The translations under genes and the position numbers were made by a program. The notes under the pieces were generated by a model. It was not told the origin of the DNA. It did no database searches and saw only the letters and a program-made list of their open reading frames with translations. This document shows, in pieces, positions 260 through 27,749 of a stretch of DNA of 64,000 nucleotides; position 1 is the first letter of the stretch; the number at the start of each line of letters is the position of its first letter. Source of the stretch: Sabulicella rubraurantiaca (GTDB lineage: Bacteria > Pseudomonadota > Alphaproteobacteria > Acetobacterales > Acetobacteraceae); the NCBI RefSeq assembly GCF_017355885.1, contig NZ_JAFEUU010000001.1:248001-312000 (forward strand). Direction: 5' to 3'.

Positions 260-1231
260 TCACCCCGCCGTGATGCGTGCCGTGGTGATCCATTCGCGCT
301 GCCTCGCCACGTCACGCTGGAGGAAGGCGGCGAATTCCTCGACGCTCATCGGCAAGGGCTGGGCGCCCGCCGCCGCCTGGCGCTGCGCCGTCTCGGGCAG
401 GCGAAGGACGCGGTTCACCTCGGCATTCAGCCGCTCGACGATCGGGCGCGGTGTGCCGGCAGGGGCCATGAGGCCCAGCCAGATGCTGGCCTCATAACCC
501 GGCAGCGTCTCGGCCACCGCGGGAAGTTCCGGCAGTAGCGGCGAGCGCTGCGGGCCGGTGGTGGCGAGGCCGCGCACCCGCCCGGCCGTGATCTGCTCGC
601 GCATGGTCGGGATGGCGTCGATCATGATCGGCACCTGGCCGGCGATGACGGCCGTGCGCGCCTCGTTGGAGCCGCGGAAGGGCACGTGCGTGACCTCGAC
701 CCCCGCCATGGATCGGAACACCTCTCCCGCGATGTGGTAGGGCGTGCCGGGTCCGGAGGAGGCATAGTCGTAACGACCCGGATTCGCCTTCAGCAGGGCG
801 ATGAGTTCCGGCACCGTCGTGGCCTGGATGGACGGATGCACGACCAGCGCGTGGTAAGCGATGTTGATCGCAGCGACGGGCGCGAGGTCGCGCAGCAGCA
901 CATAGGGACGGTTCGGCAGCAGCGTCTCGTTCGCCGTGTGCGTGTTGCTCATGAGCAGGAGCGTCTGGCCGTCGGGTGCCGCCTTCGCCACGGCATCCGT
1001 GCCGATGGTGGCGCCGGCGCCGGGCCGGTTCTCCACGATGAAGGGCTGGCCAAACGCCGCCGACAAGGGTTCGGCCAGGAAGCGCGCCGCCACGTCGGCG
1101 CTGCCGCCCAGCCCGAAGGGCACCACGATGCGGACCGGTCGCTGTGGCCAGCTGGGCTGAGCGCGGGCCAGGGACGGCGCGGCCAGGGCAGCCCCAATGC
1201 CGGCCAGAAGAAGCGGGCGACGCTGCGTCAT
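260..1231 (-). CDS. Bug/TctC-family tripartite tricarboxylate transporter substrate-binding protein
   Basis: A 323-residue periplasmic receptor. An N-terminal signal peptide (MTQRRPLLLAGIGAAL, Ala-x-Ala site near residue 24) precedes the typical start of the mature protein (WPQRPVRIVVPFGLGGSAD) and the family blocks FIVENRPGAG and HVPFRGSNEA. Family members bind carboxylates, aromatic acids or amides; the ligand cannot be read from sequence. A longer in-frame reading begins at 1414, but ATG 1231 has a strong GGAGG eight bases upstream and restores a proper signal peptide. No TctA/TctB membrane genes are adjacent, which is usual for Bug genes. It lies 64 bases after the fourth ChrA gene and 2 bases before the Fe-S subunit gene. 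Confidence 0.94.
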   Translation of the reverse strand: MTQRRPLLLAGIGAALAAPSLARAQPSWPQRPVRIVVPFGLGGSADVAARFLAEPLSAAFGQPFIVENRPGAGATIGTDAVAKAAPDGQTLLLMSNTHTANETLLPNRPYVLLRDLAPVAAINIAYHALVVHPSIQATTVPELIALLKANPGRYDYASSGPGTPYHIAGEVFRSMAGVEVTHVPFRGSNEARTAVIAGQVPIMIDAIPTMREQITAGRVRGLATTGPQRSPLLPELPAVAETLPGYEASIWLGLMAPAGTPRPIVERLNAEVNRVLRLPETAQRQAAAGAQPLPMSVEEFAAFLQRDVARQREWITTARITAG

Positions 1232-1295
1232 GGGTTTCCTCCGTTGTGTTGCGTCCTTCTTCCGCCGGGACGGGGCGCGCCGCAAGTGCGTTCCG

Positions 1296-1820
1296 CTAGA
1301 GCAGCAGCGCCCCATAGAACGCCCCGGCCACCAGCACCCAGAGCGGCGAGCGCGAGGAGAGGGTGACGAACACGGTGCAGACGGCAGCCAGCGGCAGGGC
1401 CAGCACCGCCTCATCCACCGTGCCTTTCGCGAGGAGCAGGCCCGAGGCAGCGATCAGACCCACGGCGATGGGGACCAGCCCACGCTCCACCACCCGCAGC
1501 CATGGCAGGTCCCGCTGCCGCAACCGCGCCACAGCATAGGCGAGGAGCGAGGTCGGCCCGCACATGGCCAGCATGGCGGCGAACATCCCTGCTGCGCCGG
1601 CGACATGCCAGCCGATCAGCCCCACCACCATGATGTTTGGCCCAGGCGCAGCCTGGGCCAACGCGAACCGCTTGGCGAAGGCCAGGCTGTCCATCCAGCC
1701 ATGCTCCTCCACCACCACGCGGTGCATCTCGGGCAGCACGGCGATGCCGCCGCCGATGCTCACGAGGGAGAGCGCGAGGAAGGCCAGCACCAAAGGGCCG
1801 ATCTCGTCATCCTCGCTCAT
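1296..1820 (-). CDS. Half-size chromate transporter (ChrA family), C-type half, pair 2
   Basis: A 174-residue, strongly hydrophobic membrane protein with about five or six helices, covering one ChrA domain (a full ChrA is about 400 residues). Family signatures are GGGIAVLPEMHR near residue 23 and the pore motif AQAAPGPN near residue 56. Its ATG overlaps the stop of the preceding half-gene (ATGA at 1817-1820), so the two halves are translationally coupled and presumably form one heterodimeric carrier. Chromate/sulfate antiport is the named family role. Being inside a carboxylate-catabolism operon leaves the real substrate open. Confidence 0.9.
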   Translation of the reverse strand: MSEDDEIGPLVLAFLALSLVSIGGGIAVLPEMHRVVVEEHGWMDSLAFAKRFALAQAAPGPNIMVVGLIGWHVAGAAGMFAAMLAMCGPTSLLAYAVARLRQRDLPWLRVVERGLVPIAVGLIAASGLLLAKGTVDEAVLALPLAAVCTVFVTLSSRSPLWVLVAGAFYGALLL

Positions 1821-26357: not shown

Positions 26358-26594
26358 TCAGCATTCGCAACCCGGCGCAGGCTCGGAGGAGCCGCGGACG
26401 ATGTGATGGTCCACCCATTCGGCGACGAGGCGCCGCGCCTCCGTCACAGAGGATTCCGGGTGATGAACGCGATACAGCGTCGTGCAGGCCTGGAAGGCGA
26501 CCATATCCGGCTGGCCGAGGTCGCGAAGCTCGCGATAGGCAGTGACGACGGCCCGCTCGCAGCGTCGGGCGATGTGGCTGTAGTCGCGACCCAT
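26358..26594 (-). CDS. Small hypothetical protein with CxC C-terminus and structured mRNA leader
   Basis: A 78-residue, mostly helical protein rich in Arg, His and Glu (RDYSHIARRCERAVVTAYRE, VTEARRLVAEWVDHHIV), ending in a short tail with a C-x-C pair (GCEC) and an internal Cys; metal binding is possible but unproven. I do not recognise a family. ATG 26594 has the RBS GGAGGG six bases upstream, which lies inside the long inverted repeat at 26600-26634. A promoter with overlapping operator palindrome follows at 26635-26664. Such elaborate control of so small a gene supports its being real. Confidence 0.72.
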   Translation of the reverse strand: MGRDYSHIARRCERAVVTAYRELRDLGQPDMVAFQACTTLYRVHHPESSVTEARRLVAEWVDHHIVRGSSEPAPGCEC

Positions 26595-26599
26595 GGTAA

Positions 26600-26634
26600 C
26601 CCTCCAAGTTGCGAATCACTCGCAACTTGGAGGG
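26600..26634 (-). promoter_or_regulatory. 15-bp perfect inverted repeat covering the Shine-Dalgarno site
   Basis: CCCTCCAAGTTGCGA and TCGCAACTTGGAGGG flank a five-base loop in the leader of the 78-residue gene. In the mRNA the 3' arm contains GGAGGG, the ribosome-binding site, six bases from ATG 26594. If transcription starts upstream of the 5' arm, the site is locked in a very stable hairpin. If it starts within the arm, as the promoter spacing suggests, a shorter stem remains at the extreme 5' end and leaves the site free. It could also be a DNA operator. Confidence 0.75.
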
Positions 26635-26664
26635 AGGATAGCGACGCTTGAACAAGCGTTCAAG
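26635..26664 (-). promoter_or_regulatory. Sigma-70-like promoter with overlapping palindromic operator
   Basis: On the minus strand, TTGAAC (26658-26663) and TATCCT (26635-26640) are separated by exactly 17 bases, a reasonable -35/-10 pair (4 of 6 matches each). The -35 lies within the perfect palindrome CTTGAAC-GCTT-GTTCAAG (26647-26664), with an overlapping second palindrome ACGCTTG-TT-CAAGCGT. TetR-type repressors often bind such TTGAAC/GTTCAA sites. It drives the 78-residue gene. Confidence 0.6.
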
Positions 26665-26675
26665 TGACGCCGGGG

Positions 26676-27749
26676 TCAGGCGCGCGAAACAGCTTCCGCG
26701 ATCGCCTTGCCCACATCCACCGTGCCGGCCTGGCCGCCCAGGTCGCGGGTGCGCGGGCCGCCGTCGCGCAGCAGCGCCTCGATGGAATCGGTGACGGCCT
26801 TGGCCGCTTCCCGCTCACCCAGGTGGTCCAGCATCATGGCGCCGGACCAGATCTGGCCGATCGGGTTCGCCACCCACTTGCCGGCAATGTCCGGCGCCGA
26901 GCCGTGCACCGGCTCGAACATCGAGGGGTGGTCCTTCTCGGGATTGATGTTGGCGCTGGCCGCGACGCCGATGGAGCCCGCCACCGCGGGCCCCAAGTCG
27001 GACAGGATGTCGCCGAACAGGTTGGAGCCGACCACCACGTCGAACCAGTCCGGGTGCTGCACGAAATGCGCGCAGAGGATGTCGATGTGGAACTGGTCCG
27101 TCGTCACCTCGGGGTAGTTCTTCGCCATCTCGGCGAAGCGCTCGTCCCAGTAGGGCATGGTGAAGGTGATGCCATTGGACTTGGTGGCGCTGGTCACCTT
27201 CTTTCGCGGGCGGGTCATCGCCAGCTCGAACGCATACTTGATGATCCGATCGGTGCCCGTCCGGGTCAGGATGGATTGCTGCGAGACGAATTCTCGGTCG
27301 GTGCCCGGGAACATCCGGCCGCCGACGGAGGAGTATTCGCCCTCGGTGTTCTCGCGCACGACATAGAAGTCGATCTCGTGCGGCGCGCGGTCGGCGAGCG
27401 GCGTCTTCACGCCAGGCAGCAGCTTGCAGGGGCGCAACGAGACATACTGGTCGAAGCCGCGCCGGATCGGGATCAGGAGGCCCCAGAGCGAGACATGGTC
27501 CGGCACGCCAGGCCAGCCCACCGCGCCCAGGAAGACGCTGTCGCTGTCGCGAAGCTGGTCCAGCCCGTCGTCGGGCATCATCTTGCCGGTCTGGGCGTAG
27601 GTCTCGCAGGACCAATCATAGTGCTTCAGCTCCAGCTCGAAGCCGAAGCGGCGGGCGGCCGCGTCGAGGACGCGCAGCCCCTCGGGCGTGGTTTCCTTGC
27701 CGATGCCATCCCCGGGAATGACGGCGATGCGGTGCTTGCGGCCGGCCAT
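26676..27749 (-). CDS. Tartrate dehydrogenase/isopropylmalate dehydrogenase-family decarboxylating dehydrogenase
   Basis: A 357-residue NAD-dependent beta-decarboxylating dehydrogenase. It has the N-terminal IAVIPGDGIGKETTPEGL, the substrate-binding stretch VSLRPCKLLPG, the active-site Tyr in VRENTEGEYSSVGG and the cofactor-end motif EPVHGSAPDIAGKWVANP. The VGWPGVPDHVSLWGLL block is typical of the tartrate/D-malate dehydrogenase (TtuC/DmlA) branch rather than LeuB or Icd. It converts tartrate or D-malate to oxaloglycolate/pyruvate-type products. The frame is open to 27848, but ATG 27749 with GGGGAAA upstream gives the family start. A minus-strand gene, it is followed downstream by the small regulated gene. 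Confidence 0.9.
   Translation of the reverse strand: MAGRKHRIAVIPGDGIGKETTPEGLRVLDAAARRFGFELELKHYDWSCETYAQTGKMMPDDGLDQLRDSDSVFLGAVGWPGVPDHVSLWGLLIPIRRGFDQYVSLRPCKLLPGVKTPLADRAPHEIDFYVVRENTEGEYSSVGGRMFPGTDREFVSQQSILTRTGTDRIIKYAFELAMTRPRKKVTSATKSNGITFTMPYWDERFAEMAKNYPEVTTDQFHIDILCAHFVQHPDWFDVVVGSNLFGDILSDLGPAVAGSIGVAASANINPEKDHPSMFEPVHGSAPDIAGKWVANPIGQIWSGAMMLDHLGEREAAKAVTDSIEALLRDGGPRTRDLGGQAGTVDVGKAIAEAVSRA

Follow-up and report, generated by a model that had tools for sequence, protein, structure and literature searches.

A short gene on the minus strand of a 64,000-nucleotide stretch of the Sabulicella rubraurantiaca genome (the window) is very probably an iron-starvation gene repressed by Fur, and its 78-residue product would belong to an unnamed family of three-helix proteins, with conserved cysteine and histidine residues, that is tied to Fur. 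The operator part of this reading is well supported by comparison of leaders and genomes, and the function of the protein is put forward as a hypothesis. According to the mechanism that we propose, iron-loaded Fur would bind the TTGCGAGTGATTCGCAA box, which begins nine bases past the -10 element and lies over what would be the first transcribed bases, and would thereby turn the gene off; once iron runs out, Fur would leave and the small protein would be made from an ordinary Shine-Dalgarno sequence. Its most likely role would be that of an iron-stress effector which handles metal through its cysteine and histidine residues and works alongside Fur, the metal-handling component being read from the conservation of these residues only.

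Results

The gene and its protein family

A sequence-only reading of this DNA had described a 78-residue gene with a C-x-C end and with no known family, and each of these statements held on comparison. The open reading frame comprises 78 codons and ends in GCEC (Table 1), and it is considered to be a real gene because third-position differences dominate among its relatives and because 34 of the 36 sampled genomes of its own family, the Acetobacteraceae, carry it; a chance open reading frame was rejected by this codon-position pattern and conservation. A scan of named genomes returned 397 relatives, the best 80 of which were kept, and these differ from the window gene at codon positions one, two and three in 1079, 760 and 2884 instances, respectively. 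They represent Roseococcus, Rubritepida, Rhodovarius, Roseomonas-type genomes and other Acetobacteraceae, as well as metagenome bins labelled Acetobacteraceae, Rhodospirillales, Alphaproteobacteria or Asaia. Residues C12, C37, HHPE (44-47), HH63-64 and C76-x-C78 are invariant in a 21-row family alignment; C12, C37 and HHPE are all present in 80/80 named relatives, as is the C-x-C end.

Searches of Pfam, NCBIfam and PHROGs gave no credible match. The Pfam scan of the 78-residue protein produced one unrelated weak hit only (E 0.063), 23 family members searched against Pfam and NCBIfam produced weak hits only (best E 0.012, in one of the 23), and the best E-value of a PDB sequence search was 0.43. 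The AlphaFold model consists of three helices (residues 3-25, 30-44 and 50-66; mean pLDDT 85.8), the order of which implies that C12 and H44/H45 should lie at one end of the bundle. Foldseek returned no hit with E <=0.001 for the models of the window group and of the fur-linked group described below, and the best VIA-align match was to part of a Cas12f chain, at a Z of 8.1 that is common for helical bundles. Sequence comparison establishes the protein as one branch of a family of small three-helix proteins, alphaproteobacterial and unnamed, which share a near-invariant cysteine and a His-His-Pro motif. No paper on this small-protein family was recognised from titles and abstract openings in the literature. 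At the 34 own-family loci no recurrent iron-specific gene was found within 1.5 kb; subsets of these loci are flanked by an isopropylmalate/tartrate-dehydrogenase-like gene or by an MFS transporter gene (names from translations), and a function deduced from conserved neighbours in the own family was rejected as none of these is iron-specific.

Table 1. Features of the gene and its leader (positions in the window)
Feature	Position	Strand	Basis or remark
Gene for 78-aa protein of an unnamed family	26594..26358	minus	conservation and codon-position pattern
-35 element TTGAAC	26663-26658	minus	similar hexamers in relatives; without entry in consensus scan
-10 element TATCCT	26640-26635	minus	TAT-type hexamers at equal spacing in many relatives; without entry in consensus scan
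Shine-Dalgarno sequence GGAGG	26605-26601	minus	six bases before the ATG (26594)
Putative Fur-type operator TTGCGAGTGATTCGCAA, 7-1-7 dyad	26609-26625	minus	starts ~3 bases downstream of the predicted transcription start
Candidate second operator ACTTGAACGCTTGTTCAA over the -35	26648-26665		resembles the SmtB/ArsR 12-2-12 class
Perfect 15-bp inverted repeat	26600-26634		inner part is the Fur-type box

Promoter elements and the Fur-type box

The compact promoter-operator that had been proposed for this leader was recovered feature by feature, on the minus strand and at the place where each had been described. The distance from TTGAAC to TATCCT is 17 bases, exactly as had been claimed, and the pair shares 8 of its 12 bases with the sigma-70 consensus, which is under the threshold of the consensus scan; a scan of 26580-26900 for promoter and terminator consensus sequences listed nothing. 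The pair is regarded as credible mainly because similar hexamers at equal spacing recur in relatives, and by the usual spacing rule from the -10 element the transcription start is estimated at ~26628. Both palindromes of the earlier description are present, namely the perfect TTGAAC-GCTT-GTTCAA over the -35 element (26663-26648) and the overlapping ACGCTT-GTTC-AAGCGT (26659-26644). The latter is not a general feature, being, by eye, complete in the window only and one mismatch off in the relative L002.

The Fur-type box is widely conserved before the gene. A match to TTGCGANTNATTCGCAA within two mismatches precedes it at 28 of the 30 family loci whose leaders were examined (34 loci match, and four of them were left out). 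When the 120 bases upstream were scored for their best box, a value of at least 12 out of 16 was reached in 62 of 79 usable named relatives (L186, near a contig end, was dropped from the 80) as compared to 2 of 742 control windows taken from those contigs. In the other 17 of the 79 every box over these 120 bases scores below 12, and no box was seen in the small-genome relatives L061-L063. We take TGCGAnTnATTCGCA to resemble the classical TGATAATnATTATCA Fur dyad. By eye, the Roseomonas-type leaders L196, L218, L225 and L231 display an extra half-site, TCGCAAC, immediately 3' of the box, which looks like an overlap of two Fur dimers.

Within the own genome the box pattern with at most three mismatches is matched 39 times, counted strand-wise, and its reversed form 11 times. 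Nine places other than the one studied here lie within two mismatches of the box, and four of them are directly before iron-uptake genes as judged from our own reading and Pfam. These four are before a TonB-receptor gene (PF07715), before an ABC ATPase gene with Peripla_BP_2 and, as a double site made up of two of the nine, before a gene for an FbpA-like binding protein (SBP_bac_6). A few kilobases from the FbpA-like gene, an ABC permease gene is preceded by a site with three mismatches. A fifth place is before a Sel1 gene adjoining that TonB-receptor gene. The TTGAGAATTACTCGCAA box (L033, ~1501-1517) is situated in a formate-dehydrogenase-type cluster between a DUF3306 gene and a Nitrate_red_del gene, hinting at iron control of an Fe-S enzyme. 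The TTGCGAGTGAGTCGCAA box (L034, ~1501-1517) is located at the start of an open reading frame (1041-1577, minus strand) without a Pfam match, the product of which is a second candidate iron-starvation protein. Two of the nine places look like chance.

Homologues behind fur in other orders

In a class-wide sample of 387 genomes the family was found in 34, and hence Fur biology does not in general include it. Outside the own family, 11 of 25 fetched loci from this sample have the gene directly behind fur on the same strand and 14 do not adjoin fur. One order, to which Azospirillum and Indioceanicola belong (plasmid records of both genera have hits at coordinates shared with some of its genomes), has the family in 75 of 82 genomes, and at all 30 top-scoring fetched loci (one per genome, the best 30 of the 75 matching genomes) the gene is behind fur. 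A second order, that of genome G050, has it in 15 of 17 genomes, with 15/15 best hits behind fur and 15 further lower-scoring copies not adjoining fur. Several genomes of this second order carry two to five family copies (L142-L156).

The fur-linked set of 56 rows corresponds to 50 distinct places, six pairs being the same place. The nearest in-frame start is at most 42 bases from the fur stop in 49 of these, and the 50th (L136, without a start) is cut at a contig end and also follows fur; an overlap of four bases with the fur stop occurs in 21 of the 50, the starts being a mechanical choice. In the Azospirillum-type loci L112, L113 and L115-L126 the fur stop codon contains the nearest start of the small gene, and this ATGA overlap suggests translational coupling of the two genes. 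The chromid of Azospirillum brasilense Sp7 harbours a second family copy, also behind a FUR-family gene (PF01475, E 2e-34). In Sabulicella rubraurantiaca the gene is not next to fur, as the two are on separate contigs, the gene on C11 and the FUR-family match on C61.

The fur-linked and Acetobacteraceae groups are homologous (hhalign probability 99.0%, E 2.4e-18, 55 columns, 40% identity), and their AlphaFold models have similar helix patterns (pLDDT 85.4 and 85.8, respectively). In the 44 of 45 fur-linked rows used for residue counts (L136 was left out) H-H/C-P is kept throughout, the C-terminal C-x-C occurs in none, and 23 rows have a cysteine one or two residues before the conserved cysteine. 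A box scoring at least 12 precedes fur itself at 7 of 28 fur-linked loci (five Azospirillum-type loci, L109 and L137), a count made without control windows. A different element was observed in the family of genome G071, where seven of eight loci (L262 and L264-L269, but not L263) carry TTGA[TC]-N4-[AG]TCAA approximately 100-135 bases before the matched gene part; we take this to be an FNR/DNR-like palindrome. The small gene is thus encountered in three settings, each in different groups: under a Fur-type box, with fur, and under an oxygen-type box.

Discussion

Alternative readings of the leader

The perfect 15-bp inverted repeat with the ribosome-binding site in its 3' arm exists as had been described (arms 26634-26620 and 26614-26600, 5-base loop), and by our own arithmetic only ~0.0005 perfect repeats of this length with a loop of 3-10 would be expected by chance per 64 kb. 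The sequence-only reading had suggested, as one of two possibilities, that this hairpin hides the Shine-Dalgarno sequence until it is opened by temperature, a ligand or an RNA-binding protein, and an RNA that includes 26634 would indeed fold into a strong stem which takes in GGAGGG (-35.2 kcal/mol, z -4.96). However, the outer part of the repeat (26634-26626 with 26608-26600) was observed in no leader but those of the window and of one close relative: the 9-bp outward extension to the Shine-Dalgarno sequence is present in 2 of 30 family loci (the window and L002), reaching at most 2 bp in the others, and in 1 of the 79 usable named loci, L157, which is the same place as L002. In an alignment of 53 leaders (49 distinct), comprising the 52 of 79 with a box score of at least 13 plus the window, each of the eight outermost pairs is unpaired in 22-34 of the 49 distinct sequences (216 of 392 cells), and relatives do not keep the pairing of the Shine-Dalgarno sequence through compensatory changes. 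A start at ~26628, which is an estimate for a promoter that the consensus scan did not list, would leave six outer arm bases untranscribed and would place the bases pairing with GGAGGG upstream of the message; the predicted fold from this position retains a stem of 9 bp (z -0.94, with 30 of 200 shuffles equally good over 69 bases), and GGAGG lies outside this 5' stem, partly in a weaker predicted helix with coding bases. Among the observations that had been named as speaking against a switch, the lack of conservation of the repeat was thus found, and a start downstream of the arm is predicted only. As the outer arm is unconserved and most of the masking part is upstream of the predicted start, and as an Rfam search of the window gave no match, an RNA switch was rejected, and translational control by the hairpin is considered extremely improbable. 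It is also improbable, if less so, that the RNA would open with a stabilising 9-bp stem in addition to the operator role of the DNA: the predicted start coincides with the base of that stem, but its fold is no better than that of shuffled sequences and the uninterrupted stem is shorter in most relatives. Moreover, the inner pair at columns 13-23 is broken in 13 of the 49 distinct leaders by TTGCGA...TCTCAA-type boxes, in which the stem is broken and a Fur-like half-site is kept, as a DNA operator would allow; four other inner stem pairs are invariant across the 49. The whole-stem covariation score (0.190 vs 0.133) and the fraction of paired cells (67.8% vs 63.9%) both exceed all 500 shuffles, but a DNA dyad also yields such covariation, which does not separate the DNA from the RNA reading. 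The inverted repeat is most likely a DNA landing site for Fur rather than an RNA switch, with a lineage-specific extension towards the Shine-Dalgarno sequence, and the case may serve as a warning that perfect hairpins at ribosome-binding sites can be disguised DNA operators.

With the repeat taken as a DNA operator, the identity of the protein that reads it, and that of a possible second reader over the -35 element, are to be weighed. Irr, Zur, Mur and Fur regulators share related dyads, and several same-genus genomes encode two to four FUR-family proteins, both of which would favour a different Fur-superfamily sensor, of the Irr, Zur or Mur type, as the reader of the box; this is nevertheless very improbable, given that the genome of Sabulicella rubraurantiaca has a single FUR-family protein (PF01475, E 1.5e-31), which scores like the best hit of most same-genus genomes, and that other box sites are at iron-uptake genes. 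Compatible with Fur as the reader of the box is dual metal control, in which an ArsR/SmtB-type repressor would act on the TTGAAC palindrome and the gene would respond to iron as well as to zinc or a comparable metal, a proposal to which we assign somewhat less than an even chance. TTGAAY-N4-RTTYA was recognised over the -35 element in 33 of 79 named leaders, although its right half is lost in many Roseomonas-type leaders. The only other site of the own genome within one mismatch, TGAACAGGTGTTCA (L091:1500-1520), lies between an ArsR-family gene and znuA and is a candidate zinc-type ArsR operator, but ~3 such sites would be expected by chance according to rough arithmetic, so the site count alone proves nothing. 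In 14 of 15 same-genus genomes, among them the own, a similar core (at least 8 of 10 positions) is located at or before the znuA-side ArsR gene, as compared to 140 of 900 control windows; this count was made on L238-L252, 15 of 18 loci, the other three being from other families, and a 16th same-genus genome, G014, with a weak ArsR match only, was left out. Genome-wide, the TTGAAC palindrome shows no enrichment, with 8 matches vs 15 for the reversed pattern, and a regulon defined by this palindrome was rejected for that reason. A similar layout is described in PMC8790569 for AzuR, an SmtB/ArsR repressor encoded in a znu operon which binds a 12-2-12 repeat over the -35 element of a remote metallothionein gene. 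The likeness to this AzuR-NmtA pair consists of the palindrome over the -35, a repressor gene beside znu genes and a remote small cysteine-containing target, whereas the protein targeted here is predicted to be a three-helix one with Cys/His residues, and its gene has a Fur-type box in addition. Among the other repeats that PMC8790569 describes in the genome is one whose core reads CTGAACA-GA-TGTTCAAG. No such repeat was found there near the znu operon itself, which counts against the proposal of dual metal control.

Comparison with known iron systems

HemP/HmuP/ChuP proteins are small iron regulators linked to Fur-controlled iron supply, and the protein described here resembles them in being small and, as proposed, tied to Fur-controlled iron supply; identity with HemP/HmuP was rejected as there is no Pfam or NCBIfam match to that family. 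The bacterioferritin-associated ferredoxin Bfd (PF04324) is likewise small and contains cysteines, and it is induced by iron lack in the related Gluconacetobacter diazotrophicus according to PMC9368920. This identity was also rejected, since the 78-residue protein has no match to PF04324 (Fer2_BFD), and the genome has a Bfd-type match of its own in a 59-residue frame (C11:455071-455214). G. diazotrophicus possesses a functional Fur and a Fur-box regulon, as set out in the same source (PMC9368920), to which the present system is similar in that the promoter carries an inverted repeat, further sites lie at genes for TonB and ABC iron uptake, and the genome has a single fur gene; it differs in that a 9-1-9 consensus is given there and a 7-1-7 dyad is found here. 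The word 'hypothetical' is absent from the main text of PMC9368920, which gives the target sites in a supplementary table.

Significance

A further, tentative proposal, which we consider possible but rather doubtful, is that the family as a whole represents a dedicated partner of Fur, which would bind metal or Fur itself and would tune iron sensing or deliver iron in starvation, being encoded with fur, and often overlapping it, in Azospirillum and related bacteria, whereas its gene would be governed by a Fur box (and possibly an ArsR-type site) in the Acetobacteraceae and by an FNR-like box in a third group. If this were true, iron control in these alphaproteobacteria would have a component that has gone unrecognised. 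Few bacterial regulators have been studied as well as Fur, and yet a small protein whose gene directly follows fur in two orders, and lies under a Fur-type box in another, has no family in the libraries searched. Should the protein bind Fur or hand over metal, it would be an added player in the iron sensing of nitrogen-fixing and plant-associated alphaproteobacteria.
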